Shown one piece after another: positions 24,148 through 38,925 of a DNA stretch of 64,000 nucleotides (position 1 is the stretch's first letter; each line of letters starts with the position of its first letter). The notes beneath the pieces were generated by a model. The model was not told where the DNA came from. It saw only the letters and a list, made by a program, of their open reading frames with translations, and ran no database searches. The position numbers and the translations under genes are program-made. This DNA is from Streptomyces sp. CG 926 (GTDB taxonomy: Bacteria > Actinomycetota > Actinomycetes > Streptomycetales > Streptomycetaceae). The DNA is taken from assembly GCF_003148825.1 (NCBI RefSeq), contig NZ_QGGZ01000001.1, forward strand, positions 186,001 through 250,000, read 5' to 3'.

Positions 24148-24201
24148 GTGGGGGTTCCTCCGATGTCTCAACTCCCCGCGGGGACAGCGGGGTTGACCGG
24201 A

Positions 24202-24230
24202 AAGCTAAAACTGGCCAAGCGCTCGGTCAA
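24202..24230 (-). promoter_or_regulatory. Promoter of deiminase 1 with overlapping TetR-type operator
   Basis: On the minus strand TTGACC (24225-24230), a 17-bp spacer and TAGCTT (24202-24207) form a near-consensus promoter. The imperfect palindrome TGGCCAAGCGCTCGGTCA (24212-24229, centre AGCGCT) covers the -35 box and spacer, and has the form seen for many TetR operators. The adjacent divergent TetR is the obvious ligand. It differs from the TTGACTGAA sites further right. Confidence 0.6.
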
Positions 24231-24293
24231 TAGTTTGGACGAGGTCGTTCCGGTGGATCGTGGAAAGCCCCAGGTCGCGGACCGAAGGCCGGC

Positions 24294-24299
24294 TAGAGT
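24294..24299 (+). promoter_or_regulatory. Leaderless -10 box for the TetR gene at 24306
   Basis: TAGAGT followed by 6 bp and the ATG at 24306, with no Shine-Dalgarno sequence. Typical arrangement of a leaderless Streptomyces transcript. Confidence 0.5.
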
Positions 24300-24305
24300 G
24301 ACGCC

Positions 24306-24956
24306 ATGGCAGCTGTCGCGAAGGACTCCGGGGGCCGGCCGGCCACTCCCCCTGCAAGGGCCGGCCGGCCACGGTCCTCGACGAAAGGCGAACAGACCCG
24401 GGCACGACTGATCGCCGCCGCACGGACCCTGCTCGCGGGTGAGGCGAGCGAGGGCTTCACCACGCGCAACGTCGCGGCACTGTCGGGCGTTTCGCACGGA
24501 ATGTGCCACTACCATTTCCAGGACCGGACCGATCTCGTCCTCGCGGTCATCGAGGACATCCGCCCGGAGTGGATCACGCCGCTGGAGACGGCGGTCCGCG
24601 CACCCGGACCCTTCGCCGAGCGTGCCGAACGGGTCGTCCAGCTACTCGGTCGGCCCGAGGGCCCCGAGCTCTCCCACCTCCATTCCGCCCTGCACTGGCA
24701 GGCATTGAACGACACCCGGGTCCGGGCGAGCCTGGAAACCGAGTACCGGCGCTGGCGTGCCTGCTTCGTCGCCCTCTTCCAGGTCCTGGCCGACGAGCGC
24801 GGCGAGGGCCTCGATCCGCGCCCGCTGGGACTGGCCGTGGCCGCCGCCGTCGACGGCCTGGCGGCCATGGACTCCCTCGGCGCCGACGGCGGTACGGAAC
24901 CGATCCTGCGGACCCTGATCCGTACCCTCGCGGCGGGAGCCCGGTCCGAGCCGTGA
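24306..24956 (+). CDS. TetR-family regulator next to deiminase 1
   Basis: A 216-residue regulator with a basic Pro-rich lead. The HTH region is TRARLIAAARTLLAGE through TTRNVAALSGVSHGMCHYHFQDRTDLVLAVIEDI, and the C-terminal domain is of the general TetR_C type. It is divergently transcribed from deiminase 1, and the AGCGCT-centred palindrome in the spacer is its probable operator. It is not closely similar to the two TetR paralogues at 32050 and 35954, which fits its different operator. The ligand may be the deiminase substrate or product; this is inference. Confidence 0.85.
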   Translation: MAAVAKDSGGRPATPPARAGRPRSSTKGEQTRARLIAAARTLLAGEASEGFTTRNVAALSGVSHGMCHYHFQDRTDLVLAVIEDIRPEWITPLETAVRAPGPFAERAERVVQLLGRPEGPELSHLHSALHWQALNDTRVRASLETEYRRWRACFVALFQVLADERGEGLDPRPLGLAVAAAVDGLAAMDSLGADGGTEPILRTLIRTLAAGARSEP

Positions 24957-25130: not shown

Positions 25131-25955
25131 CTAGAGCGCCCGGCGGGCCGCGGCGATCGCCTCCGGGTCCCACCCCGGGCGGGGCACCGACTCCAGCAGG
25201 AGCCGGGTGTAGGGGTGCCGGGGTGCGGCGAGCACCTCGGCCGTGGCGCCCGCCTCGACGATCCGGCCGTGCCGCATCACGACGATCTCGTCGGTCACGC
25301 ACCGTACGACGCCCAGGTCGTGGGTGATGAAGAGGTACCCGATGCCGGTCTGCTCCCTGATGTCCGCGAGCAGGTTGAGGATCTGCGCCTGTACGGAGAC
25401 GTCGAGCGCGGCGACCGCCTCGTCCAGGACGAGCACGGACGGCTCGACGGCCAGCGCGCGGGCGATGGCGACGCGCTGACGCTGGCCGCCGGACAGCTCT
25501 CGCGGCAGGGCGTCGGCGGCTCGGGTGCCCAGACCCACCTGGTCGAGCAACTCCCTTATCCGCTTGCCGTGGTCACGGCCCGGGAAGTGCAGGCGCAGGG
25601 TCTCGCGCAGGGCCGCCTCGACCCCGGTGCGCGGATCGAGGGAGAGGTACGGGTCCTGGAAGACCATCTGGACCTCCCGGGCGCGGGCCAGGCGCCGCGC
25701 ACGGCCGCGGCCCTCGCCCCGCGCGGTCCGGTTCCGGCCGCCGACCAGGACCTCGCCCTCGTCGGCACGCTCCAGGCCCACGATGATCCGCGCGGTGGTG
25801 GTCTTGCCGGAACCGGACTCCCCCACGATCCCCAGCGAGCCTCCTTCGGGCAGGACGAAGGACACGTCGTCCACGGCGCGTACCGCTCCGTAGGACCGGC
25901 GTAGGCCCGTGACCTCCAGCACGTTGCCGGGAAGACCCGGTCCGTTATCGGGCAT
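25131..25955 (-). CDS. Dpp/Opp-type ABC importer ATPase 2 (DppF-like)
   Basis: A 274-residue ATPase, the last gene of a five-gene importer operon. It contains Walker A GESGSGKTT, ABC signature LSGGQRQR, Walker B VLVLDEAVAALD and the C-terminal oligopeptide-ABC extension with HPYTRLLLESVP. It would pair with the DppD-like ATPase to power uptake through the DppB/DppC-like permeases. Its start overlaps the end of the preceding ATPase gene by 11 bp. Substrate is set by the lipoprotein encoded first in the operon. Confidence 0.9.
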   Translation of the reverse strand: MPDNGPGLPGNVLEVTGLRRSYGAVRAVDDVSFVLPEGGSLGIVGESGSGKTTTARIIVGLERADEGEVLVGGRNRTARGEGRGRARRLARAREVQMVFQDPYLSLDPRTGVEAALRETLRLHFPGRDHGKRIRELLDQVGLGTRAADALPRELSGGQRQRVAIARALAVEPSVLVLDEAVAALDVSVQAQILNLLADIREQTGIGYLFITHDLGVVRCVTDEIVVMRHGRIVEAGATAEVLAAPRHPYTRLLLESVPRPGWDPEAIAAARRAL

Positions 25956-26976
25956 CGACGGTGCTCCCTTCGAGCCGGTCGCTGTGGTGGCAGGCGGCCA
26001 GGTGTCCCGGCCGGCCCGGGGCGGCCACCGGCAGGGGGACCTGCCGGTCGCAGACCTCGGTGGCGAGCGGGCAGCGGGCGGCGAAGGCGCAGCCGTGCAG
26101 GGCCTGGCGCAGGTCCGGCGGCTGCCCCTCGATGGCGGCGAGCCGGCCGCGCGGGCCGTCCATCCGCGGGGTGGAGGCCAGCAGGGCGGCCGTGTACGGG
26201 TGTCGGGGGCGCGCGAAGAGGGCCTCGGCGGGCCCGCTCTCGGCGATCCGGCCCGCGTACATGACGTAGACGCGGTCGCTGATGGCCGCCGCCAGGTCGA
26301 GGTCGTGCGTGACGAACAGCAGGCCGGTGCCGAAGCGGGCGCGGAGCCCGGCCAGCAGGGCGATGACCTCGGCCTGCGAGGTGACGTCCAGCGCGGTGGT
26401 GGGCTCGTCGGCCAGCAGGAGCACCGGGTCCCCCATGAGGGCCGCCGCGATCACCACGCGCTGGAGCATGCCACCGGAGACCTGGCCGGGATACTTGCGC
26501 ATCACCGCCGGCTCCAGGCCGACCGCCCGCAGGAGTTCGGCGGCGCGCGCGGTCGCCTCGGCCCGACTCATGGCCCGGGTCAGCGTGGCGCTCTCGGTGA
26601 GGAAGTCCCCGATGCGGCGCAGTGGGTTGACGGCGGCGCGCGGGTCCTGGAAGACCATGGCCACGGCGGAGGCCCGTACCGTACGCAGCCGGTCGGCGCT
26701 CATGGTGAGGACGTCCTCGCCGGCCACCCGTACGGCTCCTTCCACGACGGCTCCGGACGGCAGCAGGTTCAGGGCGCTCCGCGAGGTGAGGCTCTTGCCG
26801 GAGCCGGACTCGCCGACGAGGGCGACGGTCTCACCTTCGCGAACCGTGAGGTCGACGCCGTCGAGGACGGGTCGGGCGGTACCGGGCAGGGTGATCCGCA
26901 GCCCTTGGACGTCGAGGGTGTGCACCGGTTCCGTGGGGTGCGGCGTGGGGTGCGGCGTGGGGTGCGGCGTACTCAT
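25945..26976 (-). CDS. Dpp/Opp-type ABC importer ATPase 1 (DppD-like)
   Basis: A 343-residue ATPase with Walker A GESGSGKS, signature VSGGMLQRV, Walker B LLLADEPTTALD and the peptide-ABC C-terminus containing a Cys-rich FAARCPLATEVC segment that binds an iron-sulfur cluster in some relatives. The N-terminus is an unusual PHPT repeat (three copies) encoded by a 12-bp tandem repeat at about 26937-26972, probably a recent expansion. The start overlaps the permease stop (ATGA). Confidence 0.9.
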   Translation of the reverse strand: MSTPHPTPHPTPHPTEPVHTLDVQGLRITLPGTARPVLDGVDLTVREGETVALVGESGSGKSLTSRSALNLLPSGAVVEGAVRVAGEDVLTMSADRLRTVRASAVAMVFQDPRAAVNPLRRIGDFLTESATLTRAMSRAEATARAAELLRAVGLEPAVMRKYPGQVSGGMLQRVVIAAALMGDPVLLLADEPTTALDVTSQAEVIALLAGLRARFGTGLLFVTHDLDLAAAISDRVYVMYAGRIAESGPAEALFARPRHPYTAALLASTPRMDGPRGRLAAIEGQPPDLRQALHGCAFAARCPLATEVCDRQVPLPVAAPGRPGHLAACHHSDRLEGSTVDAR

Positions 26977-27827
26977 CGGGACCTCCTGGCGACACGGTCG
27001 GCCCAGCGTTCGCCGACCACGTTGAAGGCGACCACGGTCAGCACGATGAAGGCGCAGGGCAGGATCGCGGACAGCGGGTAGCCGTGCTGGATGGCGGTCT
27101 GGCCGTCGAAGACCATGCGGCCCCAGTCGGGGGTGAGGGCGGGTACGCCGAGCCCGAGGAAGGACAGTCCGGCCAGGTCCATCAGGGCGTAGCCGAAGTT
27201 GATGGTGGACTGGGCGAGGACGACGGGGGCGATGTTGGGCAGGATGTGGCGCAGGCAGATCTGCAGCGCGGAGTGGCCCTGGACCTGGTAGGCGCTGACG
27301 TACGGGCGGGCTCGTTCGGCCAGGACCAGGGAGCGGGTGAGCCGGCTGACGTAGGGCAGGTAGGCCACGGCGAGCGCGATGACCGGGGCGAGCAGCCCCT
27401 CCCCGTAGACCGAGATGATCAGGATGGCGAGCAGCATGCCGGGGAAGGCGAAGACGAGCTCGGTGCTACGGGAGAGCACGGAGTCGATCCAGCCGCCCCG
27501 CCAGGCCGCGGCCGTGCCGATGGCGATGCCGGCGACGGTGGAGAAGGCGACGACGCCGAGCGGTCCCAGCAGTGAGGTACGGGCGCCGAGCAGCAGCCGG
27601 GAGAGGGTGTCGCGGCCGGCCGCGTCCACGCCGAGCGGATGCGCGGCGTCGGGTGCGGCCAACGCGTTGCCGAGGTCGACCGCGTTGGGGTCGTGGGGTA
27701 CGAGCCAGGGGGCGAGCAGGGCGGCGAGGACGACGACGGCGACGAGCACCAGGCAGATCAGGTGGAGCGGGGAGCCTGCGGCGCGGATCCGGGAGAGGCC
27801 GGGCCGGCGGGTCAGGACGGCGGTCAT
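26973..27827 (-). CDS. Dpp/Opp-type ABC importer permease (DppC-like)
   Basis: A 284-residue permease. An N-terminal membrane segment (LICLVLVAVVVLAALLAPW) is followed by the periplasm-side NALAAPDAAHPLGVDAAGRD motif typical of DppC proteins and five further segments. The coupling loop near ARPYVSAYQVQGHSALQICLRHILPN is the EAA region that contacts the ATPases. Start ATG 27827 overlaps the DppB-like stop by 4 bp. Confidence 0.9.
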   Translation of the reverse strand: MTAVLTRRPGLSRIRAAGSPLHLICLVLVAVVVLAALLAPWLVPHDPNAVDLGNALAAPDAAHPLGVDAAGRDTLSRLLLGARTSLLGPLGVVAFSTVAGIAIGTAAAWRGGWIDSVLSRSTELVFAFPGMLLAILIISVYGEGLLAPVIALAVAYLPYVSRLTRSLVLAERARPYVSAYQVQGHSALQICLRHILPNIAPVVLAQSTINFGYALMDLAGLSFLGLGVPALTPDWGRMVFDGQTAIQHGYPLSAILPCAFIVLTVVAFNVVGERWADRVARRSR

Positions 27828-28786
27828 ACGGCGGCGCTCCTCGTTCCGAGGGTGACCCTGGGGTCGACCAGGGGCAGCAGGAGGTCCACGATCAGGTTCA
27901 CGATCATGAAGAGGGCGACGATGATCAGGGAGATCGCCTGGACGGTCGGGAAGTCCTTGGTGGTGGTGGACAGTTCGAGGAGCTGGCCGATCCCGCCGAT
28001 GCTGAAGGCCGTCTCCACCAGGATGGTGCACACGAGCAGCGTGGAGACGACGAGGCCGCCGGTGGTCAGGACGGTGCCGAGCGCGTTGCGGAAGACGTGG
28101 CGCTTGATGACCTGGCGTTCGGGGACGCCCCGGCTGCGGGCGACGGTGACGTGGTCGCTGTCGAGGGCTTCGAGCATGGCGGAGCGGGTGACCCGGGCGA
28201 GCATGCCGATCAGGTAGAGCGCGAGGGCGACGGAGGGGAGCGTGAGGTGCCACAGCATGTCGCCGAGACCGCCGTCGCCCGCCCCGCTGCTGGGGAACCA
28301 GCCGAGGTTGACGGCGAAGAGGCCCTGGAGCAGGACCGCCGCCACGAAGGACGGGGTGCCGACGGCGAAGGTCGTGGTGACGAGGACGGCGGAGTCGGTG
28401 GCCCCGCCGCGGACGGCGGCGATCCGACCGAGGAGGAGGCCGACGGCGACGACCACGGCGAGCGACATCGTGATGAGCATCAGGGTGATGGGCAGCCGGT
28501 CCGCCAACAGCCGCGAGACGTCGGTGCGGTAGGTGATCGACCGCCCGAAGTCGCCCTGCAGGATGTCGCCCAGCCACCGGAGGTAGCGCAGCAGGAAGGG
28601 GTCGTCCAGGTGGTACTGGGCGTTGATCGAGGCGAGGGCCTCCGGGGAGGCCGAGCGGCCGGCGAGCAGGAAGCTCGCCGGGTTGCCGGGTGCCAGGTAC
28701 ATGGCTCCGAAGACCACGAACGAGGCGGTCAGCAGGGTGGCGGCCATCTCCGCCACCCTGCGTAGCGCGAATCTGACGAAACTCAC
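27824..28786 (-). CDS. Dpp/Opp-type ABC importer permease (DppB-like)
   Basis: A 320-residue permease with six predicted membrane segments, an N-terminal FGAMYLAPGNPASFLL motif typical of DppB, and the EAA coupling loop ARSRGVPERQVIKRHVFRNAL. The GTG start overlaps the stop of the binding-protein gene (GTGA), showing tight coupling. It forms the translocation pore with the DppC-like protein. Confidence 0.9.
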   Translation of the reverse strand: MSFVRFALRRVAEMAATLLTASFVVFGAMYLAPGNPASFLLAGRSASPEALASINAQYHLDDPFLLRYLRWLGDILQGDFGRSITYRTDVSRLLADRLPITLMLITMSLAVVVAVGLLLGRIAAVRGGATDSAVLVTTTFAVGTPSFVAAVLLQGLFAVNLGWFPSSGAGDGGLGDMLWHLTLPSVALALYLIGMLARVTRSAMLEALDSDHVTVARSRGVPERQVIKRHVFRNALGTVLTTGGLVVSTLLVCTILVETAFSIGGIGQLLELSTTTKDFPTVQAISLIIVALFMIVNLIVDLLLPLVDPRVTLGTRSAAV

Positions 28787-30456
28787 TGCGCGGCCCCCAC
28801 GTCGGCGGCCCACGGGTAGTACATGTACGAGATGGTGGTGGGGGCGCCGGTGATGCGGTTGTTCATGAACAGCGCGGTGGGCCACTCGGCGACGGGGATC
28901 CACAGGAGCTGTTCCGAGGCGTGGTGCTGCAGCTTCGCCTCGATGTCCATCCGCTGCTCGACCGGGTAGACGGCGCTCGCCTGGTCGACGAGCTTGTCGT
29001 ACTCGGGGTCGCTGTAGCCGGCGAAGTTCATGTACGCGCCGGTCCTGAAGTTCTGCAGCAGGTCGAGCGGGTCGGTGATCGAGTCGTAGTAGGTGAGCGG
29101 GAACATGTCGATGCCCTCGCGCGCCTGGGGGTCGGTGAACAGCGCGGTGAAGGCGTTCGGGGCGATCGTCTTCAGCTGGATGTCCAGGCCGATCTGCGTG
29201 CCGGCCGCCTGGACGGCGGTGGCGAGGAGGGAGACGTCCTGGCCGATGGAGCTGGTGGCCACGGTGAGCGTCTTGCCGGTGGCGCCGGCCTCCTTGACCA
29301 AGGCCTTGGCCTTCTCGATGTCCTGGCCGGTGGGCGGCAGGCTGTCGAAGGCGGTCTTCAGGGTGCGCTCGGGGGCGGCGGCCCAGGCGGCGCGGGTGGT
29401 GAGGGAGTTGGTGACGGTGCCCGCCCCGCCGAGGCCGGCCTTGACGAAGCCGGAGCGGTCCAGGGCCAGGGACAGGGCGCGGCGGACGCGGATGTCGCCG
29501 AGCGGGCCCTGCATGTCGGTGACGTTGACGTTGACCGTGCTGAGGCCCTCGCCGAAGTAGAGGGTGCCGGTGCCGCTGTTCTTGAGGCGGGCGTAGCTCT
29601 CGGTGGGGATCAGGTATCCGCCGTCGGCCTCCCCGCTGAGCATGGCGTTCGTCCGGGCGGAGGGGTCGGTCAGGACGCGGAAGACGGCCTTCTTCGACTT
29701 GGCCTTGGTGCCCCGGTAGCCGTCGAAGCGCTCCAACTCGATCGACTGGCCCTTGTTCCACGTACCGAGCTTGAAGGGACCGGTGCAGCCGAGGCCGCCC
29801 GTGGTGCCGTAGTCCTTGCCGGCCGCCTCTACGGTCGACTTGGAGGCGACCACGCCGGCGGCGGTGGCCATGTACTGGGGGAACTGCGAGTCGGGCTTGT
29901 CGAGCTTGACGGTGACCTGCAGCGGGCCGCTCTTGGTGATCGAGGCGACGTTCTGGAACACCTGGGCCCAGGCGGCCGCGTTGTCGGGGTCCTTCTGGCG
30001 GCCGAGGCTGAAGACCACGTCGTCGGCGGTCATCTCCTTGCCGTCGTGGAAACGCACGCCGGGGCGCAGGTCGTAGACCCAGGTGGTGGGGTCCGGGTTG
30101 GACGCCTTCTGGGCGAGACCGGGTTCCATGGTGAGGCCCGGGGTCCAGCGCATCAGGCTTTCGCACACGTTGGACAGGACGGTGTTCTGCGGGTAGTCGA
30201 AGGCCACCGTGTAGTCGAGGGTGGGCGGTTCGGCGTAGACGGCCCAGGTGAAGGAGTCGATCTCGCCGTGGGCCTCGGGCGTGGAGGCCGACAGCCTGAC
30301 GTCGGTGACACCGCCGGCCTTCTCCTTGGGCGGTCCGGAGCAGGCCGCGAGCAGACAGACGACGGTCAGGGCGGCGGTAGCGGCCACGGCAACGGGGCCG
30401 AGCCGGTCGCGCCGGCCGCGGAAGCGTCTGCCGGTGCGGGGCGGGGTGGTGGTCAT
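28783..30456 (-). CDS. Extracellular solute-binding lipoprotein (SBP_bac_5, peptide/opine/nickel type)
   Basis: A 557-residue lipoprotein. After a basic N-terminus and hydrophobic core comes the lipobox LLAAC with Cys39 as the lipid-modified residue. The mature part has the SBP_bac_5 order: DYTVAFDYPQNTVLSNVCESLMRW, then PGVRFHDGKEMTADDVVFSL, RRALSLALDRSGFV and a C-terminal FRTGAYMNFAGYSDPEYDKLV. This family binds oligopeptides and also other cations and amino compounds. It follows deiminase 2 by 88 bp on the same strand, suggesting that imported substrate is related to that enzyme. A hairpin in the gap may modulate read-through. Confidence 0.88.
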   Translation of the reverse strand: MTTTPPRTGRRFRGRRDRLGPVAVAATAALTVVCLLAACSGPPKEKAGGVTDVRLSASTPEAHGEIDSFTWAVYAEPPTLDYTVAFDYPQNTVLSNVCESLMRWTPGLTMEPGLAQKASNPDPTTWVYDLRPGVRFHDGKEMTADDVVFSLGRQKDPDNAAAWAQVFQNVASITKSGPLQVTVKLDKPDSQFPQYMATAAGVVASKSTVEAAGKDYGTTGGLGCTGPFKLGTWNKGQSIELERFDGYRGTKAKSKKAVFRVLTDPSARTNAMLSGEADGGYLIPTESYARLKNSGTGTLYFGEGLSTVNVNVTDMQGPLGDIRVRRALSLALDRSGFVKAGLGGAGTVTNSLTTRAAWAAAPERTLKTAFDSLPPTGQDIEKAKALVKEAGATGKTLTVATSSIGQDVSLLATAVQAAGTQIGLDIQLKTIAPNAFTALFTDPQAREGIDMFPLTYYDSITDPLDLLQNFRTGAYMNFAGYSDPEYDKLVDQASAVYPVEQRMDIEAKLQHHASEQLLWIPVAEWPTALFMNNRITGAPTTISYMYYPWAADVGAAQ

Positions 30457-30544: not shown

Positions 30545-31570
30545 TCAGACGGTGGTCCGCACTGCGGGGATCTGCTGGGTGATGCAGTGGACGCCGCCGC
30601 CGCCGAAGGCGATGGCGAGGGCCCGTACCCCGACGACCTTGCGGCCCGGGTAGGCCGTGGCGATCACTGCGAGGGCTTCCTCGTCCTGGGGCACGCCGGC
30701 CACCGGGACGACGACGCCGCCGTTGGCGACGTAGTAGTTGAGGTACGACACCTCGATCTCACCGTCGGCCAGGTCCGCGAAGGCGGTCTGCGGCACCTCG
30801 ATGATCTCCAGGCGACGGCCGAGGGCGTCGGTACTGGCTTCCAGTACGGCGCGGTTGGCGCGCATCCGGACGTGGTCGGGGTGGTCCGGGTCGGCGGGCA
30901 GCGAGATCACGACCGTGCCGGGGGCGGCGAACGCGCAGACACCGTCGACGTGACCGTCGGTCTCGGTGTCGAGCAGGCCGCCGTACGGGAGCCAGATGAC
31001 CTTGGTGACGCCGAGCCGGGACTTCAGCTCGGCCTCGATCTGGTCGCGGTTCATGCCGGGATTGCGGTTGGGGTGCAGGAGGCACTGCTCGGTGGTGATC
31101 AGCGTGCCCTCGCCGTCGACGGTGACGGCCCCGCCTTCGAGGATCATGCCGGAGGGGATGCGCTCGATGCCGAGGTGCTCCAGCAGCAGGCCGCTGATCC
31201 GGTCGTCCGAGTCGAACGGGTGGTGCTTGCGGCCCCAAGCGTTGAAGCGGAAGTCCACCCCGGCGCGGTTGCCGTCGCCGTCGAGGACGAAGAGCGGGGC
31301 GGAGTCACGGAACCAGGAGTCGTCGAGCGGCAGCTCGATGACGGTGACGCCGTCACCGCACAGCGCGCGGGCGTCGTCGCCGAAGCCGGGCGGGGCGACC
31401 ATCGTCACGGGCTCGAACGCCGCGATGGCGCGGGCGACGCTCGCGTACTCCTCCCTCACCTCGGTGAGCACGCTGCCCCACAGATCCTCGCGGGTGGGCC
31501 AGGCCATCAGACAGCCGTCGTGCGGGGACCACTCGGCGGGCATACGGAAATCGGTCATCAGATGTCTCAT
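30545..31570 (-). CDS. Deiminase 2: cytosolic agmatine-deiminase-family protein
   Basis: A 341-residue PAD_porph enzyme without an export signal, closest of the four to classical agmatine deiminases. It starts RMPAEWSPHDGCLMAWP and has DDSWFRDSAP, ILEGGAVTVDGEGT, ETDGHVDGVCAF (catalytic His and Asp) and Cys329 in GGGGVHCITQQIP. It would convert an imported guanidino compound (agmatine gives N-carbamoylputrescine) with release of ammonia. ATG 31570 gives a near-leaderless mRNA from the operator-promoter at 31586-31615; ATG 31558 is an alternative start. An ABC importer follows. No carbamoylputrescine amidase gene is nearby. Confidence 0.87.
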   Translation of the reverse strand: MRHLMTDFRMPAEWSPHDGCLMAWPTREDLWGSVLTEVREEYASVARAIAAFEPVTMVAPPGFGDDARALCGDGVTVIELPLDDSWFRDSAPLFVLDGDGNRAGVDFRFNAWGRKHHPFDSDDRISGLLLEHLGIERIPSGMILEGGAVTVDGEGTLITTEQCLLHPNRNPGMNRDQIEAELKSRLGVTKVIWLPYGGLLDTETDGHVDGVCAFAAPGTVVISLPADPDHPDHVRMRANRAVLEASTDALGRRLEIIEVPQTAFADLADGEIEVSYLNYYVANGGVVVPVAGVPQDEEALAVIATAYPGRKVVGVRALAIAFGGGGVHCITQQIPAVRTTV

Positions 31571-31585
31571 TTCTTGCGTGGGTGG

Positions 31586-31615
31586 AGTCTTCCATTCGAC
31601 TGAAAATTCAGTCAA
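31586..31615 (-). promoter_or_regulatory. Operator-promoter A (deiminase 2)
   Basis: Palindrome TCGACTGAAAATTCAGTCAA at 31596-31615 (arms GACTGAA and TTCAGTC, 2-bp centre). Read on the minus strand its TTGACT (31610-31615) is followed after 18 bp by AAGACT (31586-31591), a plausible -10. Transcription would begin about 9 bp before ATG 31570. Repressor binding would block the -35 box. Confidence 0.65.
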
Positions 31616-31889
31616 GAGGAAGGGCGGGGCAAGGGAGGAAGCGGGGGGCGATGGAGGACGCGGCCGGAGGAAGTGGAGGCGGTTCAGCTGGGCCGGCTCG
31701 GAGTGTGAAGGTTCGCCGTCGAGCGTCACGAGCCCGGTTCCGGCGTTCGCGCCGCCCCGGCGGAGGGTGGCGTCGCCGACCTTGCCGTATGCGTCGAGGA
31801 GTACGGGCCGGGCGCGGCCCGTGAGGTGGCACGGGCCGGCCGGCGGTCCGAGGGGGCGGAAGGATCGGCCCTCCCTGCTCGGAATCTTC

Positions 31890-31918
31890 ACTCTGGCATT
31901 GACTGAAAATTCAGTCAA
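31890..31918 (-). promoter_or_regulatory. Operator-promoter B, upstream of deiminase 2
   Basis: The best palindrome of the set, TTGACTGAAAATTCAGTCAA (31899-31918). On the minus strand TTGACT is followed after 17 bp by CAGAGT (31890-31895). A transcript from here would have a leader of about 310 nt before deiminase 2. It might serve as a second promoter, or as an auxiliary operator 303 bp from site A. Confidence 0.6.
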
Positions 31919-32049
31919 GAGTTTGAACAGACCTGGGTCTGCAGGGAAACACCGGAGTCCGGCGGAAGACGAGTTGGGGACGGGTGGGAGACGGGAAGGA
32001 GGCGCGCGCGGGGCGGGCCGGGGCGCGAAGCGGCCCCGGCCGGCGTACG

Positions 32050-32631
32050 TCAGGCCCGCTCGAGCCCGGCCAGCTCGGCGTCGACGGCGCCCCGCATCAG
32101 CTCACGGGCGTGGTCGATCTTGATGCCGCCGCTCAGCCAGCGCATGCTCAGCCCCTCCAACAGGGCGGTGAGCCGCTCGGCGGCCGCGGCGAGGGCGGAG
32201 GCGGGCACCATCGGCCGGACCTGGCCCAGCAGGGCGGCCACCTCCTGGACCCACACCAGGGTCGCCCGTGCCAGGTCCTCGCGCAGGACCTCGTCGAAGA
32301 CGGCGCTGGCCCGCAGTTCGCCCCAGGCCGAGCTGTTCTCCCTCACCTCCACGGTGTCCTGGAGTTCCAGCAGGAGGGTCTCCTCCAGCTCTTCGAGCGG
32401 GGTGAGCGGCGGGTCGTCCGGGTCGCGGTCGGTGGTGTAGCGCTCGGCGCGGTCGTTGATGAACTCCAGCGTCTGACGCAGCACGCCCGTGCGGTCCTTG
32501 AAGTGGTAGTAGATCAGGGCGGTGGAGACGCCGGCCTCGGCCGCGAGCTCCTCCACGCGCAGCCCGCGTACACCGCGCCGGGCGATCACCCGGGCGGCGG
32601 CTTCGAGGATCTGAGTACTACGAGACGACAT
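32050..32631 (-). CDS. TetR-family regulator, paralogue 1 of the deiminase regulon
   Basis: A 193-residue regulator. The DNA-binding domain spans ILEAAARVIARRGVRGLRVEEL and AGVSTALIYYHFKDRTGVLR, with a recognition helix almost identical to that of the TetR at 35954. The C-terminal end (AAAERLTALLEGLSMRWLSG) is also shared, so the two are clear paralogues and may bind the same palindrome. It lies 122 bp after deiminase 3 on the same strand, probably co-transcribed from site C. A 12-bp palindrome GCGTACGTACGC lies upstream. The ligand is unknown; a deiminase substrate or product is an attractive guess. Confidence 0.87.
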   Translation of the reverse strand: MSSRSTQILEAAARVIARRGVRGLRVEELAAEAGVSTALIYYHFKDRTGVLRQTLEFINDRAERYTTDRDPDDPPLTPLEELEETLLLELQDTVEVRENSSAWGELRASAVFDEVLREDLARATLVWVQEVAALLGQVRPMVPASALAAAAERLTALLEGLSMRWLSGGIKIDHARELMRGAVDAELAGLERA

Positions 32632-32659
32632 GCTCCGCACCCTACCGGGATGATCGGGT

Positions 32660-32671
32660 GCGTACGTACGC
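32660..32671. promoter_or_regulatory. 12-bp palindrome GCGTACGTACGC upstream of TetR paralogue 1
   Basis: Perfect self-complementary 12-mer 29 bp upstream of the TetR start, in the gap after deiminase 3. It is unrelated to the TTGACTGAA sites. Chance occurrence is possible in GC-rich DNA; it could also be an autoregulatory site. Confidence 0.3.
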
Positions 32672-32753
32672 GGCCCGTCACCAGGAGTGCCGGCCGGCGC
32701 GCGGGCCGCCCCGGCGGGCGGGACCGGCCGCGCCGGCCGGGGCGGCCCGGCCA

Positions 32754-33923
32754 TCAGAGCGCGGGCGGTACGGCCGGGTGCGACTGGGTGGCGCAGTGGA
32801 TTCCGCCGCCGCCGGAGGCGATGCCGTCGATCGGGAGCTGCTCGACGCGGTAGGACGGGTAGGCGTCCCGGAGGATGGCGTAGGCGACGCCGTCGGCGTA
32901 GGCGTCGCCGAACTGCGGTGCGATCACGGCCCCGTTGGCTGTGTAGTAGTTGGTGTAGCTGGACAGGAACTCCTCGCCCCGGCCGCGGATCTCCCGACGG
33001 TCCGGTCCGGGCAGTTCGGTGACGGCCAGGCGGCGACCCCGGGCGTCGGTGGCGCTCTGCAGGGCCCGCTTGGTCTCCTCGTAGACGGCCACCCATTTCT
33101 TGTCCGCGACGGGGCCGGGCCTGTCGAGGATCACGCGGCCGGGGGCGACGAAGCGGGCCAGGCAATCGATGTGGCAGTCGGTGATGTCCTGGCCAGCGAG
33201 GCCCGGTACCCAGATCACCTTGTCGATGCCGAGCGCCGCCTTCATGGCCTGCTCGACCTGGGCCTGGCTCATGCCCGGGTTCCGGTTGGCGTTGACCATC
33301 GAGCTGACCGTGGCCAGCAGGGTGCCCTCGCCGTCGGTCTCCAGCGAGCCGCCCTCGCCGACGAAGCCCGCGCGGATCCGGTTCACCTCGTACTCGGCGA
33401 GGAGCGTGCGGGCCGCAGCCGCGTCGTTGGTGAAAGGCTGCGCGTACTTCGTACCCGCCTTGCCCCAGCCGTTGAAGTTGGTGTCCACGCCGGCGATGGC
33501 ACCCGGGGCGACGACGAAGGTGGGGCCGAAATCGCGGATCCAGAGGTCGTCGTTGGGGATGTCGAGGACCTGGATGCCGTGGTACGCGCCCGCTCCGCAC
33601 CGGTAGCGGGCCTCGGCGGCCTGGCCGGGGCGGGCCAGCACCACCACCGGCTCGTAGCGCGATATCGCGTGGGCCACCTCGGCGATGTCGCTGCGCACCG
33701 CTGCGAGGCCGTCGCCCCACACCGACGAGAGGGCCGGCCAGGCCATGTACGTACGGATGTGCCGGTCGGTCTCGGCGGGCATGCGCAGGGTGCCGGAGCC
33801 GCTCTGCGCGGCCGAGGCCGGCTGCGCCTGCCAGGGCAGGGCGGAGCCGAGAGCCGCCAGCGGCAGGGCCGCCGCGCCGAACTGGAGCATGCGGCGTCGT
33901 GAGGTGCGGGGGTTCATATCCAT
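32754..33923 (-). CDS. Deiminase 3: Tat-exported agmatine-deiminase-family protein
   Basis: A 389-residue PAD_porph enzyme. The N-terminus shows a Tat motif SRRRMLQFGAAALPLAALG (residues about 8-26) and an ASA cleavage region. Catalytic elements are intact: DDLWIRDFGP, GEGGSLETDGEGT, TDCHIDCLARF and Cys377 in GGGGIHCATQSHP. Start ATG 33923 has GGGAG 5-6 bp upstream. A TTGACTGAA palindrome with a matching -10 box lies 36-65 bp upstream. It probably forms an operon with the TetR gene behind it. The substrate is likely extracellular and guanidine-containing. Confidence 0.87.
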   Translation of the reverse strand: MDMNPRTSRRRMLQFGAAALPLAALGSALPWQAQPASAAQSGSGTLRMPAETDRHIRTYMAWPALSSVWGDGLAAVRSDIAEVAHAISRYEPVVVLARPGQAAEARYRCGAGAYHGIQVLDIPNDDLWIRDFGPTFVVAPGAIAGVDTNFNGWGKAGTKYAQPFTNDAAAARTLLAEYEVNRIRAGFVGEGGSLETDGEGTLLATVSSMVNANRNPGMSQAQVEQAMKAALGIDKVIWVPGLAGQDITDCHIDCLARFVAPGRVILDRPGPVADKKWVAVYEETKRALQSATDARGRRLAVTELPGPDRREIRGRGEEFLSSYTNYYTANGAVIAPQFGDAYADGVAYAILRDAYPSYRVEQLPIDGIASGGGGIHCATQSHPAVPPAL

Positions 33924-33959
33924 GGTGACTCCCTGATGAGGAGGGGCGGGATGAACGGC

Positions 33960-33988
33960 ATCCTGGCCCTAACTGAAAATTCAGTCAA
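33960..33988 (-). promoter_or_regulatory. Operator-promoter C (deiminase 3 and TetR paralogue 1)
   Basis: Palindrome CTAACTGAAAATTCAGTCAA (33969-33988). On the minus strand TTGACT (33983-33988), 17 bp, then CAGGAT (33960-33965). The predicted start near 33953 leaves a leader of about 30 nt with a GGGAG ribosome site before deiminase 3. Confidence 0.68.
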
Positions 33989-34049
33989 CTATTCGCCCGA
34001 TCTTTCCCGTGTGTCGCGCCAGCGCGCGGACGTGATTCCGCTTCGGGGA

Positions 34050-35813
34050 TCACTTCGCGCGGAAGTGGTCGACGGCGATCGTCACGGAACCGGCGGAGGT
34101 CGCCTCGACGAGCCGCACGATCGCGAGTTCGCGCTGGTCAGGGCTGCGTACGCAGAAGGGACGCTCCTTCGCGAGCGACGTGAACGGCAAGGTCGTCACG
34201 GGCCGGGTCTCGATGCCGCGTGCGCAGTCGTCCGGGGTCAGCTTTCCGCTTCCGTCGGCCACGTACGCGTCGGACTCCTCGGACAGCAGGAAGGCGTCGG
34301 AGCCACGTGCGAGGTACCAGGCGGCGCTCTCGACGGGGACCACCTTCCCGGCGCGTAGGTCGAACTCGTAGCCGGAATCCGGGGTGGTGAGCTCGGTCCG
34401 CGGATATCCGGGGACGTACGCGGACACCGCCGGCCGGGACGCGCCGGTGGCGGGTCCGGCGGTGGGGGCGTCGCCCTCCTCCGCGGGGAGGCCGAACCAG
34501 TAGGCGCCGCCGCCGCAGGCCAGCAGCGCCGCTGCGGCCAGGGCGACCACGGGGAGCCGGCTCCGGCCGCGCCGCCGGTCGCGCCGCGCCGGGGGAACCG
34601 GGGCCGCCGGGTTCGGAACCGGACCGGTGGGCGGGGTCGGGGTCGAGGCCGAGCCCGGGGCCGGGGCCTGCTGCGGGCCAGGGCCGGGGCTCGGCGTCGG
34701 GCTCGGCAGCGGCGTCGCCCTCGGGCTCGGGGCGTACGGCATGGTCCCGCCCGGCCCGGAGGCGGGGTACGCGGCCGCCGCCCTGGTCGCCTGGAGGTGC
34801 TCCGGTACGGGCGTGCCCGGCCGAGCGACTCCCGCGGCCCCCGCGGCCGAGCCGGCCGCCGCGTGGCCCGCACCCGAACCGGACCCCCCGGCCGGGCCGG
34901 CGTCCACCCGGCCCCCGACCTCCTCCAGCACCGGCCGGGGAAGCCAGCCCTCGGTGAACTCCGGCCGCGGGCCCACGAGCGGGTGCGCGTGGACGGCCGC
35001 GATCAGGTCGGCGGTGGTGGGACGGTCCTGCGGGTGCTTGGCCAGGCACCATGCCAGCAGCTCGTGCAGCTCGTGCGGGATCCGACCGAGGTCCGGCTGC
35101 TCGTGGACCACCCGGTACAGGGCTCCGGACTCCGGCCCGTTGCCGAAGGGCGGGACCCCGCCGGCCACGAACCCGGTGAGTGCCCCGAGCGCGAAGACAT
35201 CGGTCGCCGAGGTCACCGGGTGGCCCAGCGCCTGCTCCGGCGCCATGAAGGCGGCGGTACCGATCCGCAGACCCACACCGGTCAGGGCGGCGGCGTCGGC
35301 GGCGCGCGCGATACCGAAGTCGATCACTCGCGGCCCGTCCCCGGCGATCAGCACGTTCGCCGGCTTGAGGTCCCGGTGGACGACGCCCACCCGGTGGATC
35401 TCCTGGAGGGCCTCGGCGACGCCGGCGACGAGCAGCAGCACCGTCCGTACCGGCAGCGGCCCGTGCCGCTGCACGACCTGGTGCAGCGAGGGGCCCGGGA
35501 CGTAGGCCGTGGCCAGCCACGGGGTGTGGTCGTCCTCGCCCGAGTCGACCACCTGTGCCGTGAAGAGCCCGTGGATCCGCCGGGCGCTCGCCACCTCCTG
35601 GGCGAACCGCTCACGGAACTCGGGGTCCGCGGCGAACTCGCGCCGGACGGCCTTCAGCGCGATGGGCCGGCCTCCTGGCGTGTACGCCAGGTAGACCACG
35701 CCCATGCCGCCGGAACCGAGCCGGGCGTGGAGGCGGTAGCCACCGATCTCGTGGGGGTCGTCGGCGGACAGGGCCGTGAGGGCGGACTGTACGCCGGGAA
35801 GCTGAGCGAACAT
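34050..35813 (-). CDS. Transmembrane Ser/Thr protein kinase with extracellular domain
   Basis: A 587-residue Hanks-type kinase. Kinase domain residues about 25-280: glycine loop LGSGGMG, Lys54, HRDLKPAN with Asp148, DFG at 165-167, and APEQALG. A Pro/Ala/Gly-rich linker (about 300-412) leads to a basic stretch and one membrane helix (about 420-442). The last 145 residues would be outside the cell and are not a PASTA repeat. They contain YEFDLRAGKVVPVES and a pair of Cys (CARG, PFCVR), possibly a ligand sensor. It is divergent from a TetR gene and shares an operator palindrome with it, which links signalling to the deiminase regulon. Confidence 0.9.
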   Translation of the reverse strand: MFAQLPGVQSALTALSADDPHEIGGYRLHARLGSGGMGVVYLAYTPGGRPIALKAVRREFAADPEFRERFAQEVASARRIHGLFTAQVVDSGEDDHTPWLATAYVPGPSLHQVVQRHGPLPVRTVLLLVAGVAEALQEIHRVGVVHRDLKPANVLIAGDGPRVIDFGIARAADAAALTGVGLRIGTAAFMAPEQALGHPVTSATDVFALGALTGFVAGGVPPFGNGPESGALYRVVHEQPDLGRIPHELHELLAWCLAKHPQDRPTTADLIAAVHAHPLVGPRPEFTEGWLPRPVLEEVGGRVDAGPAGGSGSGAGHAAAGSAAGAAGVARPGTPVPEHLQATRAAAAYPASGPGGTMPYAPSPRATPLPSPTPSPGPGPQQAPAPGSASTPTPPTGPVPNPAAPVPPARRDRRRGRSRLPVVALAAAALLACGGGAYWFGLPAEEGDAPTAGPATGASRPAVSAYVPGYPRTELTTPDSGYEFDLRAGKVVPVESAAWYLARGSDAFLLSEESDAYVADGSGKLTPDDCARGIETRPVTTLPFTSLAKERPFCVRSPDQRELAIVRLVEATSAGSVTIAVDHFRAK

Positions 35814-35847
35814 GCGGTGGCTCTTTCAACGATGCGATGCGCTGAGG

Positions 35848-35877
35848 CAATGACCTGGGGCGCAATGACCTGGGGCG
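35848..35877. repeat. 15-bp tandem duplication in the kinase leader
   Basis: CAATGACCTGGGGCG occurs twice without a gap (35848-35862 and 35863-35877), between the kinase start and its predicted promoter. Likely a simple duplication, though it changes the 5' leader of the kinase mRNA. Confidence 0.8.
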
Positions 35878-35878
35878 C

Positions 35879-35918
35879 ATCGTGCCGCTAACTAAAGTTT
35901 CAGTCAATGTGTGACAAT
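35879..35918. promoter_or_regulatory. Operator-promoter D, shared by the kinase and TetR paralogue 2
   Basis: Palindrome variant CTAACTAAAGTTTCAGTCAA (35888-35907). Minus strand: TTGACT (35902-35907), 17 bp, CACGAT (35879-35884) toward the kinase. Plus strand: TAACTA, 18 bp, GACAAT (35913-35918) toward the TetR at 35954. One repressor site would thus control both divergent genes. Confidence 0.6.
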
Positions 35919-35953
35919 GCGAGACGCACATCGCCAGAAAGGGGGATCGACCG

Positions 35954-36604
35954 GTGTCGGATCGAAGAAGAGCCATCCTGGAGGGCGCCGCCCGGGTCAT
36001 CGCACGACGCGGGGTCCGCGGGCTGCGGGTGAGCGATCTGGCGGTCGAGGCCGACGTGTCGACCGCCCTGATCTACTACCACTTCAAGGACCGCACCGGC
36101 ATCCTGCGGCACGCCCTGGCCTTCATCAGCGACCGGGCCGACCGCTACACGGGCGCCACCGGCGAACCGGGCGGCGCCGACGAACCGGGCGCCGCCACCG
36201 GGTCGGGTACCGCCGCCGGGGTGGGCGCCGCGCCCCCGACCATGGAGCCGCACCGACGCCTGGAGCGGATCCTGCTGCTCGAATTCCAGGATCTGCCCGA
36301 GGTGCGCGAGAACAGCACGGCCTGGGGGGAACTGCGGGCGCACACGATCTTCGACCCGGAACTGCGCGACGAGCTCACCACGGCCGGAGCGGCCTGGGTC
36401 GAGGAGGTCGCCGACCTGCTGGCCGCGGTGTGCCCGGCCGCGCCCGGCGCCGCCGTCACCGCCGCCGCCGAGCGGCTGACCGCCCTCCTGGAAGGCCTGA
36501 GCAGCCGCTGGCTGAGCGGCCTGGTGCCCGTGGAACACGCCCGCGACCTGATGCGTGGAGCCATCGGGGTCGAGATCGGGCGACTCGGTTCCCGCGCTGC
36601 GTAA
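35954..36604 (+). CDS. TetR-family regulator, paralogue 2 of the deiminase regulon
   Basis: A 216-residue regulator starting at GTG with AAAGGGGG upstream. The DNA-binding domain (ILEGAARVIARRGVRGLRVSDL, then DVSTALIYYHFKDRTGILRH) matches paralogue 1 almost residue for residue. A Gly/Ala insert of about 30 residues (around TGEPGGADEPGAATGSG) after the DNA-binding domain is absent from paralogue 1. It carries a palindrome at its own promoter and another immediately after its stop, before deiminase 4, so autoregulation and control of the neighbour are expected. Confidence 0.88.
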   Translation: MSDRRRAILEGAARVIARRGVRGLRVSDLAVEADVSTALIYYHFKDRTGILRHALAFISDRADRYTGATGEPGGADEPGAATGSGTAAGVGAAPPTMEPHRRLERILLLEFQDLPEVRENSTAWGELRAHTIFDPELRDELTTAGAAWVEEVADLLAAVCPAAPGAAVTAAAERLTALLEGLSSRWLSGLVPVEHARDLMRGAIGVEIGRLGSRAA

Positions 36605-36605
36605 A

Positions 36606-36634
36606 TTGACTGAAATTCCAGTCAGTGCAACAGT
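36606..36634 (+). promoter_or_regulatory. Operator-promoter E (deiminase 4)
   Basis: Palindrome TTGACTGAAATTCCAGTCAG (36606-36625), beginning one base after the TetR stop. TTGACT, 17 bp, AACAGT (36629-36634). The predicted transcript would have a leader of about 155 nt before the GTG of deiminase 4. That leader contains a GGTGCA-N5-TGCACC inverted repeat at 36682-36698. Confidence 0.58.
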
Positions 36635-36796: not shown

Positions 36797-37954
36797 GTGT
36801 CGTTCACTCCCCCCACCCGCCGGTCCGTCCTCCGCACCTTCGCCGGGATCGGCGCCGCCGTCTTCGGTGCGGCCGCCTGCGGTCCCGCCGAGTCCGGTGA
36901 GCAGCCCGGCCCCGGCGGCTCGCCCCTGCCCGCCGCGGACGGAAAGCGCCGGTTCGGCGCCGAGTGGGAGAGCCACACCCGCACCTTCATGTCCTGGCCG
37001 GCCCTCGCCTCGGTCTGGGAGCAGGACCTGCCCTACGTCCGCGAGGACATCGCGCGGATCGCTCGGGCCGTCGGCGGCTACGAAGAAGTGATCATGATGG
37101 CCCGCCCCGACCAGGTGAACGCGGCCCAGAAGGCCGTCGGCTCGCAGGTCGAGGTGATCCCGCTGGCCGTCGACGACCTGTGGGCCCGCGACACCGTCCC
37201 CGTCTTCGTCGAGGAGGGTTCCAAGGTCGTCGGCGTCGACTTCAACTTCAACGGCTGGGGCAACAAGCAGGAGCACCCGAACGACGCCCAGGTGGGGCGC
37301 CTGCTGCTGCAGAAGTACGGGATCCCCCGGGTCCAGGCCCCGCTGGTCGCCGAGGGCGGCTCCTTCGAGACCGACGGCGAGGGCACGCTGATGGTCACCG
37401 AGAGCTCGATCGTCAACGACAACCGCAACAAGGGGAAGTCCCGGGACACCATCGAGGCCGAGCTCAAGCAGACCCTGGGCGTCCAGAAGGTCATCTGGCT
37501 GGCCGGCGTACGCGGTGAGGACATCACCGACGCGCACGTGGACAGCCTCGTACGCTTCACCGCCCCCGGGGTGGTCCTGCTGGACCGCGCCCACCCCAGC
37601 ACCCCGCCGGACTCCTGGTCCCGCTCCGCCGACCAGGCGAAGTCCGTCCTGTCGAAGTCGACGGACGCCCGCGGCCGCCGTTTCGAGGTCATCGATCTGC
37701 CGCAGCCCGACCTGAACCGGATCACCGGTGAGGGCGACGACTTCGTCTCCACCTATGCCAATTTCTACGTCGCCAACGACTCGGTGTTCATGCCGCAGTT
37801 CGGGGACCGCAAGGCGGACGACCGCGCCCGCGGCATCCTGCGCGAGCACTTCCCCAAGCGGGACGTCGTCATGGTGAAGATCGACACCATCGCCTCGGGC
37901 GGCGGCGGCATCCACTGCTCGACGCACGACCAGCCCGGCAAGCCCGCCGCCTGA
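36797..37954 (+). CDS. Deiminase 4: exported, probably lipid-anchored agmatine-deiminase-family protein
   Basis: A 385-residue PAD_porph enzyme starting at GTG with GGAG 7 bp upstream. The signal combines a twin-arginine motif (TRRSVLRTF, residues 7-15) with a lipobox-like GAAAC at Cys28, so it is probably a Tat-exported lipoprotein held on the outer face of the membrane. Catalytic elements: DDLWARDTVP, AEGGSFETDGEGT, TDAHVDSLVRF and Cys374 in GGGGIHCSTHDQP. It follows TetR paralogue 2 and a palindrome. A reading from 36683 is possible but adds non-coding-like sequence. Confidence 0.86.
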   Translation: MSFTPPTRRSVLRTFAGIGAAVFGAAACGPAESGEQPGPGGSPLPAADGKRRFGAEWESHTRTFMSWPALASVWEQDLPYVREDIARIARAVGGYEEVIMMARPDQVNAAQKAVGSQVEVIPLAVDDLWARDTVPVFVEEGSKVVGVDFNFNGWGNKQEHPNDAQVGRLLLQKYGIPRVQAPLVAEGGSFETDGEGTLMVTESSIVNDNRNKGKSRDTIEAELKQTLGVQKVIWLAGVRGEDITDAHVDSLVRFTAPGVVLLDRAHPSTPPDSWSRSADQAKSVLSKSTDARGRRFEVIDLPQPDLNRITGEGDDFVSTYANFYVANDSVFMPQFGDRKADDRARGILREHFPKRDVVMVKIDTIASGGGGIHCSTHDQPGKPAA

Positions 37955-38040: not shown

Positions 38041-38925
38041 TTGTCGAACTCCCACCGCCCCGCACGGCCCGCGCGCCGCGTCCCGCTGTTGCCGGGCCTG
38101 GTCCTGATCGCCATCGTGGCGGCGGTCACCGTGGGAGCGTGGCTCCAGTTCGGGGAGCGCCAGGCCCTGGACACGGTGTACACGGCGGGGCGTGCCGACC
38201 GGGACCGCGTCGACGTCAGCGCCACGATCCAGCGCGTCGACGCCGCGGGCCGCGAGATGACCTTGCGCGTCCTGGTCACTCCTCGGGGCGCCCTGGCCGA
38301 GGCCGACGGGGTCTCCCCCACCGAGGACCTCACCATCCAGACGTCCACGGCCACCCGGGGCGATCTCACCTTCAAGGCCCACCAGCGCATCGCCACGACG
38401 GACGTACCGGTGGCCCTGACGGGCGGCTCGATCACGGACTACCCGTTCGACTCCTACGCGGCGGACGTCGAATTCGGTGCGGTGCTCGGCGGGGAGAAGG
38501 TCCCGGTCCGCGTCACGCTCTCCAACAACGACGTCCTCTTCTCGGCGACGGTCGACGCCTCGACGACGCAGGGCATCGCGGTCCTCGACATCGGCCTGGC
38601 GCGGTCCACCAGCGTGTTCATCTTCGCGATCTTCATGATGCTCGCCATGTGGGCGCTCGCCGTCTCGGTCCTGATCGGCGGCTGGTACCTGGTCACCCGC
38701 CGTAAGGGCCTGACCTGGCCCGCCCTCGGCTGGATGGCCGCGACCCTCTTCGCGCTGGCCGCCTTCCGCAACACGGCCCCGGGCGCTCCGCCCATCGGCT
38801 GCCTGCTCGACTACATCGCCTTCCTCTGGGCGGAAACGGTCATCGCGTTCTGCCTCATCACGGTCGTCATCACGGGCATCCGCGCCGAACCCCCGGCCAC
38901 GACGCCGTCGGACACCCCCTCGTAG
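38041..38925 (+). CDS. DUF4436-type membrane protein
   Basis: A 294-residue protein starting at TTG with CGGAG upstream. One N-terminal membrane segment (LLPGLVLIAIVAAVTVGAWL) is followed by an extracellular domain of about 150 residues. Three C-terminal segments follow (FIFAIFMMLAMWALAVSVLI, a second around LGWMAATLFALAAF, a third near AETVIAFCLITVVITGI). The ITDYPFDSYAADVEF motif is typical of DUF4436. Function unknown. It lies 86 bp after deiminase 4 on the same strand and might be co-transcribed with it. Confidence 0.78.
   Translation: MSNSHRPARPARRVPLLPGLVLIAIVAAVTVGAWLQFGERQALDTVYTAGRADRDRVDVSATIQRVDAAGREMTLRVLVTPRGALAEADGVSPTEDLTIQTSTATRGDLTFKAHQRIATTDVPVALTGGSITDYPFDSYAADVEFGAVLGGEKVPVRVTLSNNDVLFSATVDASTTQGIAVLDIGLARSTSVFIFAIFMMLAMWALAVSVLIGGWYLVTRRKGLTWPALGWMAATLFALAAFRNTAPGAPPIGCLLDYIAFLWAETVIAFCLITVVITGIRAEPPATTPSDTPS

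Follow-up and report, generated by a model that had tools for sequence, protein, structure and literature searches.

What controls the cluster of deiminase genes in Streptomyces sp. CG 926, and do its members answer to one regulator? We analyzed a stretch of 64,000 nucleotides (nt) from this genome (hereafter the window; contig NZ_QGGZ01000001.1, positions 186,001 to 250,000; 72.5% GC), in which the interval from 22.9 to 39 kb holds four PAD_porph deiminases, three TetR genes, a Ser/Thr kinase, an oligopeptide-type ATP-binding cassette (ABC) transporter and a DUF4436 gene (Table 1). Five palindromic 20-mers lie among these genes. Our reading, to which as a whole we give a probability of about 0.87, is that they are operators of two paralogous TetR proteins, TetR2 and TetR3, which would repress by covering the -35 element of each target promoter and would be released by a ligand, with joint induction of the targets. 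Comparison with other genomes supports the sites and a link between them and the TetR subfamily. It likewise supports the choice of target genes, the geometry of their promoters and a deletion at one of the sites; the comparison sets are named by locus (L) or genome (G) labels.

An earlier reading of this DNA from its letters alone (the sequence-only reading) had proposed the five 20-mers, and all are present where it placed them. At sites 1 to 5, respectively, 16, 18, 14, 12 and 16 of the 20 letters equal their own reverse complement, and the palindrome consensus is TTGACTGAANNTTCAGTCAA. With up to three mismatches, the consensus of the sequence-only reading recovers four of the five places in the window (seven strand hits) and nothing in 100 dinucleotide shuffles; since no shuffle gives a hit at a cut that recovers four of them, the five palindromes are not a product of chance. 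The site at 35888 is too degenerate for this cut, and ranks fifth in the window when scored with a matrix derived from all five; its 34.2 bits against 4.4 bits for the best non-site are circular in that the matrix comes from the same sites. A genome-wide scan for the 20-mer, also proposed in the sequence-only reading, gave no further clear copy: across the 8,513,506 base pairs (bp) of this genome, TNANTGAANNTTCANTNA with at most one mismatch occurs at the five window sites and at one other place (C8:310926). Allowing two mismatches gives 11 places and the reversed control gives 5, so we regard the extra places as background and reject further sites outside the window.

Both TetR2 and TetR3 score above the cut-offs of the TetR_N domain (PF00440, 24 bits) and of PF13977, the C-terminal domain that they have in common with BetI-type regulators; neither reaches the choline-BetI equivalog TIGR03384 (56.0 and 38.0 bits, respectively, against 201.3). 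The two proteins are 84% identical in the DNA-binding domain and 54% in the ligand domain. In an alignment of homologues (4 of 75 TetR frames left out; the 62 longer than 185 amino acids used), mean identities are 84% and 60% for these two domains, and the recognition helix VSTxLxYYHF is almost invariant. From these sequences, TetR2 and TetR3 should read the same operators. In named records, the closest matches of TetR2 come from Streptomyces sp. NBC_01214 (97%), S. avidinii (96%), and S. amritsarensis and S. virginiae (both 94%). The solved structure closest to the subfamily profile is PDB 2g3b (E 3.7e-62), presumably from Rhodococcus, an entry whose molecule name offers neither operator nor ligand.

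The distribution of the site follows that of the TetR subfamily. Among 150 genomes searched with TetR3, close homologues, set off by an E-value gap (1.4e-24 against 7.7e-12 for the next genome), occur in 28. A strict form of the site, TNACTGAANNTTCAGTNA, is found in 18 of these 28 genomes and in none of the 122 others (Fisher p 1.6e-16, phylogeny not corrected). A deiminase-4-like gene (E<=1e-60) is carried by 62 of the 150 genomes, 34 of which lack the TetR; the strict pattern does not occur in any of these, and so the enzymes do not bring the site along. These counts bear on the possibility that another DNA-binding protein reads the palindrome while TetR2 and TetR3 merely travel with the cluster. 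Clustered genes co-occur as neighbors in any case, and TetR binding is itself drawn from comparison. We nevertheless consider a different reader very improbable, given the 34 genomes that have the deiminase but neither the TetR nor the strict pattern, the deiminase-site-TetR units (L085, L093, L095, L097, L098, L099) in which the TetR start adjoins the site, and the off-cluster sites before AguB-like (N-carbamoylputrescine-amidase-like) genes in the TetR-carrying genomes G012, G039, G042 and G199 (TetR cluster L108). In a phylum-wide sample of 296 genomes, a TetR homologue at E<=1e-25 is present in six, our genome included.

The strict pattern yields 61 sites in 33 of the 295 genomes of the genus that we searched, with none for the reversed control among the matches listed. 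For 60 of the 61, at least one side has a deiminase, TetR2/3-type, kinase, urease-like or AguB-like amidase gene no more than 600 bp downstream; a site counts as upstream if a tblastn match starts between 120 bp inside it and 600 bp beyond it. The lone exception (L115:7530) adjoins the 3' end of a TetR2 gene, as site 2 does. At a looser cut (core mismatches <=2, total <=4), 138 of 140 sites in 60 loci are upstream of such family genes (60 regions fetched and 59 counted, the filler region L130, which has no hits, being left out). When loci are chosen by TetR alone, 74 of 79 contain a site and 158 of 164 sites are upstream of family genes, against four reversed-control sites in 1.14 Mb; because these 79 loci overlap the genome sample, the two sets are not independent. 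The operator also precedes an AguB-like gene away from the deiminase cluster in four relatives (L072, L122, L124 and L125; Pfam CN_hydrolase for L122). Outside the family, two deiminase-TetR pairs, one in Tsukamurella (L240) and one in a different genus of the same class (L243), carry it upstream of the deiminase, and three more distant TetR homologues (L245-L247) have imperfect TTGACTGA-type palindromes directly before their own gene. The regulon is found in many Streptomyces and Kitasatospora and reaches the Mycobacteriales (Tsukamurella). By comparison, then, the putative operator lies at promoters of the TetR genes themselves and of their targets, which supports the proposal of the sequence-only reading that deiminases 2, 3 and 4, the kinase and the regulators themselves answer to one regulator family: the sites track the TetR subfamily and sit on its own promoters and those of the named genes. 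Mean mismatches are 2.4 for TetR3, 2.7 for the kinase and 2.95 for TetR2, compared with 1.7-2.2 for the deiminases and urease-like genes; the idea that self-regulating sites are weaker than enzyme sites is only weakly borne out.

How would a bound TetR dimer act at these sites? On re-reading the boxes, TTGACT and the xANNNT box downstream of it are 18 bp apart at site 1 (AAGACT) and 17 bp apart at sites 2-5 (CAGAGT, CAGGAT, CACGAT, AACAGT), in agreement with the 17-18 bp stated previously. The boxes point toward deiminase 2 (sites 1 and 2), deiminase 3, the kinase and deiminase 4, in that order; from site 2 the next gene start is about 340 bp off, beyond site 1. We compiled promoters with core mismatches <=1, total mismatches <=3 and full 80-nt context, unique by 50-nt sequence, and summed spacers over the enzyme, urease-like and kinase classes, so that a single promoter may count at two spacers. 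Of 225 unique deiminase, urease-like and kinase promoters, 181 have an xANNNT box at spacer 17, with 0 at 15, 3 at 16, 15 at 18, 14 at 19 and 15 at 20. By class, spacer 17 is found in 59/70 deiminase 4, 23/27 deiminase 3, 28/28 urease-like (UreAB2) and 26/27 deiminase-1-like promoters, and in 25/39 of the deiminase 2 class, which has spacer 18 in 10/39. The deiminase 4 promoter consensus, TTGACTGAAtTTtCAGTCAG-TG.CA.AGTG, looks like an extended -10 promoter with its -35 inside the operator. Because the arrangement of TTGACT, 17 bp and box is conserved toward the enzyme and kinase genes, the mechanism we favor is a repressor that covers the -35, and the -35-blocking suggested from sequence alone fits the geometry of these promoters.

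Two other roles for the palindromes meet the same geometry. Some TetR proteins act as activators, and on this general ground TetR2 and TetR3 might activate from these sites; we hold this to be extremely improbable, as the sites overlap a near-consensus -35 with conserved 17-bp spacing at the enzyme promoters and, as it seems by eye, the -10 region at AguB-like promoters, both places unsuited to an activator. The palindromes might instead form RNA hairpins or terminators, as they are inverted repeats and sites 2 and 5 lie directly past TetR 3' ends. We rejected this, and rate its chance as close to nil, on the conserved promoter boxes on the gene side of the sites, on sites such as 35888, and many in relatives, that lie between divergent genes and cannot terminate either of them, and on arms that are conserved in sequence and not merely in pairing.

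Several results weigh against TetR repression from this operator. The kinase class (STPK) keeps spacer 17 in part only (20/34). The TetR2 direction lacks the geometry, with 2/63 at spacer 17 and xANNNT at spacer 19 in 13/63; the TetR3 direction has 0/17 at spacer 17 and a GACAAT two bases further out (13/17 at spacer 19, counted from CTAACT); and AguB-like genes have 0/4. As the 17-bp geometry is absent at TetR and AguB promoters, control there must use other box positions: at AguB-like promoters the operator seems, read by eye, to cover the -10 of a promoter with TTGACY further up, and the operator places at TetR2, TetR3 and AguB-like promoters would fit a repressor. The -10-like boxes begin mostly with C or A, not T, which makes promoter strength uncertain. 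Moreover, 5 of the 79 TetR loci (L168, L222, L227, L229, L231) show no site at the cut used, with weaker look-alikes present; and an Embleya TetR at 66% (L241) has no operator in 16.6 kb, nor has a 40% relative (L244). Ten of the 28 TetR genomes lack the strict pattern: in nine of these the fetched loci show more-mismatched sites (L078 only a poor one), and in the tenth (L101, part of whose TetR match contains a stop) no site was found.

Site 2 has a history of its own. In the sequence-only reading, the box after every site pointed at a deiminase or the kinase. Site 1 does face deiminase 2; site 2, judged by comparison, originally served a ureAB-ureC operon that has been deleted here and of which a 3' remnant is left. 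In relatives, among them L074, L106 and L108, this operator and deiminase 2 are separated by a ureAB-ureC operon, whose L074 copy matches the Pfam urease gamma, beta and alpha families. Window positions 31790-32011 match the TetR2 side of L108. Positions 31540-31747 align by blastn with the 3' end of ureC together with the promoter of deiminase 2, at 76.9% in L108 and 79.7% in L109. In L107 and L109, both near relatives, this interval measures only ~1.3 and ~1.2 kb, respectively, and shows UreAB-like traces. With the operon behind this site in relatives, and with remnant and junction in the window, we rejected the view that site 2 arose as a deiminase operator. It would have outlived the deletion and now stand in tandem upstream of deiminase 2, an example of an operator outliving its operon. 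In six TetR loci of other species, the operator past TetR2 is not followed by any family gene, so operon losses of this sort may have recurred.

The UreC2 proteins of relatives fall short of the urease equivalog TIGR01792 (649.9 against 680 bits) and score above the cut-off of subfamily PRK13207 (751 against 354 bits). Aligned to the other urease alpha of our genome, the urease-alpha-like protein at L074:11993-13738 keeps the His, Lys and Asp residues that we take to be metal ligands, and has Val in place of the Cys that we take to be the flap residue; UreC2 may hydrolyze ureido compounds, not urea. Contig 9 of our genome carries a 93% identical ureC adjoining a fifth deiminase, and an operator at this second urease-like/deiminase locus was rejected, as none was found there. 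The locus (L151/L132, 197779-200571) reads ureAB2-ureC2-deiminase, the gene order of the regulon copy in relatives. After its deiminase, on the same strand, lies a TetR-like gene that by eye is of another kind.

Table 1. Genes, putative operators and deletion traces of the proposed deiminase regulon in the window.
Feature	Coordinates	Strand	Details
ABC transporter, oligopeptide/nickel-type	25131..30456	-	Solute-binding protein, two permeases, two ATPases; PF00496, BPD_transp_1, ABC_tran, oligo_HPY
Deiminase 2 (PAD_porph)	30545..31558	-	PF04371 382.2 bits; by eye no signal peptide
Operator 1	31596..31615	-	-35 TTGACT 31615-31610, 18-bp spacer, -10-like AAGACT 31591-31586; deiminase 2, probably ABC genes behind
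ureC 3'-end remnant	31667..31738	-	Reads TGLVTLDGEPSHSEPAQLNRLHFL; ~24 last residues still legible
Deletion junction	31747..31790		~2.5 kb (ureAB-ureC) sits here in L108
Operator 2	31899..31918	-	-35 31918-31913, -10-like CAGAGT 31895-31890; putative original ureAB-ureC operator-promoter (operon deleted here)
TetR2	32050..32631	-	BetI-type C-terminal domain; PF00440 52.1 bits, PF13977 37.5 bits
Deiminase 3 (PAD_porph)	32754..33923	-	PF04371 336.8 bits; twin-arginine-like N-terminal signal SRRRMLQFGAAALPLAAL (read by eye)
Operator 3	33969..33988	-	-35 33988-33983, -10-like CAGGAT 33965-33960; deiminase 3, probably TetR2
Ser/Thr protein kinase	34050..35813	-	PF00069 131.4 bits
Operator 4	35888..35907		Between divergent kinase (minus) and TetR3 (plus); kinase -10-like CACGAT 35884-35879, TetR3 -10-like GACAAT 35913-35918
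TetR3	35954..36604	+	TetR2 paralogue; PF00440 44.5 bits
Operator 5	36606..36625	+	-35 36606-36611, -10-like AACAGT 36629-36634; deiminase 4, perhaps DUF4436
Deiminase 4 (PAD_porph)	36797..37954	+	PF04371 361.8 bits; twin-arginine-like signal, lipobox-like GAAAC (read by eye)
DUF4436 membrane protein	38041..38925	+	PF14494 256.3 bits; behind deiminase 4

What do the target genes make? Deiminases 1-4 score 318-382 bits against PF04371 (cut-off 25). The motifs GGxxHC, D.HxD and WxRD, whose Cys, His and Asp residues we take to be catalytic, are kept, in deiminase 4 by alignment to the plant enzyme and in the others by eye. Their N-termini indicate that deiminases 3 and 4 are probably exported by the twin-arginine (Tat) route, and point to a cytosolic deiminase 2. 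A weak point of the agmatine assignment is that deiminases 1-4 miss the agmatine deiminase equivalog TIGR03380, with 231.3, 335.1, 267.2 and 260.8 bits against 381.8; as they score below this curated cut-off, agmatine is a putative substrate. Operator and TetR repression could be real with a different signal and substrate, either other guanidino compounds or peptidyl-arginine, the products being imported by the oligopeptide-type transporter. Besides the TIGR03380 scores, this alternative draws on the mere 39-48% identity of the genome's other four family members to deiminase 4, on the SBP_bac_5 class of the transporter, on the lack of an AguB-like gene at E<=1e-60 in our genome, and on 6nib, named a Porphyromonas-type peptidyl-arginine deiminase, as next-best structural match to deiminase 4 (E 1e-60). 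The nearest structures, however, are the agmatine iminohydrolases 3h7c and 1vkp (E 1.1e-64), entries named plain peptidylarginine deiminase (4yt9 and others) reach E 6.5e-11 at best, and the same operator precedes the AguB-like gene in the four relatives. We consider a signal and substrate other than agmatine less likely than not, but by no means remote.

The remaining targets follow from gene order. The ABC genes stand behind deiminase 2 in the same order in many relatives and are probably co-transcribed with it from operator 1, and TetR2 is probably transcribed with deiminase 3 from site 3 and would have no site to itself. The DUF4436 gene adjoins deiminase 4 in part of the relatives and is a possible member of its operon. 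A hydrophobic stretch, read by eye, suggests that the kinase is probably membrane-anchored; it misses the AfsK model (265 bits against a cut-off of 1300). The best NCBIfam match of the solute-binding protein (28783-30456) is a nickel-binding protein model, at 123.8 bits far under the cut-off of 600; a link of this protein to the lost urease-like genes is conceivable. In L120:4950 and L087:12605, an operator precedes a gene that reads as an NCS1-type permease, a possible further member of the regulon.

From these parts we infer binding, the direction of control, export, inducer and enzyme substrates in the following model. A TetR2 or TetR3 dimer on TTGACTGAANNTTCAGTCAA would cover the -35 TTGACT of each target promoter and keep RNA polymerase off. 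A guanidino compound or deiminase product, likeliest agmatine or N-carbamoylputrescine, would bind the ligand domain and release the repressor. Release would jointly induce exported deiminases 3 and 4, cytosolic deiminase 2 with the ABC importer, the Ser/Thr kinase and the repressors themselves. A bolder picture, unlikely in its entirety, is guanidine scavenging from the outside in: exported deiminases would make ureido compounds from extracellular guanidino compounds for import by the ABC system; UreAB2-UreC2, with its flap Cys replaced by Val, would be a ureido hydrolase able to replace AguB and not a urease; the two repressors, with one DNA code and different ligand domains, would form an AND gate for two signals at every promoter; and the co-induced membrane kinase would report this state to development or antibiotic production.

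Repression of agmatine deiminase genes by a TetR protein is already known, and the multi-promoter, two-repressor layout with exported enzymes and kinase is a variant and not a new kind. In the nearest known system, as PMC4287709 describes it, AguR of P. aeruginosa sits on the promoter of the agmatine deiminase genes aguBA and is released by agmatine; it is a single repressor of a single operon, bound between -35 and -10. Our proposed regulon differs in having five operators placed on the -35, a pair of paralogous repressors, an ABC transporter and a kinase beside deiminases that are probably exported, and urease-like genes in relatives. The likeness that we draw is one of description, a TetR repressor on an agmatine-deiminase-type promoter. 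Of the AguR-type layout, a TetR site on deiminase and carbamoylputrescine amidase promoters, the window shows sites on deiminase promoters, four relatives have an AguB-like gene under the operator, and our genome has no AguB-like gene at E<=1e-60. A row of genes at L239 of P. aeruginosa (a pair for deiminases, one for an amidase, one for a solute-binding protein) is, by our reading of gene order, the agu2ABCA' operon. It has deiminase and solute-binding protein genes together, as the window does, and a LysR-type regulator gene beside it.

A literature search with the letters of the site gave mostly unrelated papers among the matches listed, the exception being SbtR of Thermus. SbtR is a TetR-family protein. 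Its operator in Thermus thermophilus (PMC4948773) has the half-site TGACTG and the consensus TGACTGGCCAGTCA; this half-site is common to both systems, but SbtR half-sites are 2 bp apart and those here 6 bp, and the targets differ. No paper on this regulon was among the matches listed, in a search reaching few subscription papers, and the accessible part of a polyamine metabolism review rich in Streptomyces (PMC9397018) contains nothing on it. Now that the proposed operator, repressors and target list are given exactly, one can test what several probably exported deiminases, a kinase under shared control and a urease-like paralogue do, and the regulon offers a ready sensor part.

Deiminase 1 and TetR1 (22978-24956) appear to form a separate switch. 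Among the deiminases, the sequence-only reading had named 2, 3 and 4 as controlled, and no such site is found at deiminase 1; we rejected the pair as part of the regulon on this ground and on a different conserved palindrome in its intergenic region. This palindrome, at ~24212-24229, reads TGGCCAAGCGCTCGGTCA in the window and TGACCAAGCGCTCGGTCA in some relatives. In an alignment of eight deiminase 1-TetR1 intergenic regions (Streptomyces and one Kitasatospora), six have a clear TTGACCG...GGTCAAT form, which is probably TetR1's own operator.

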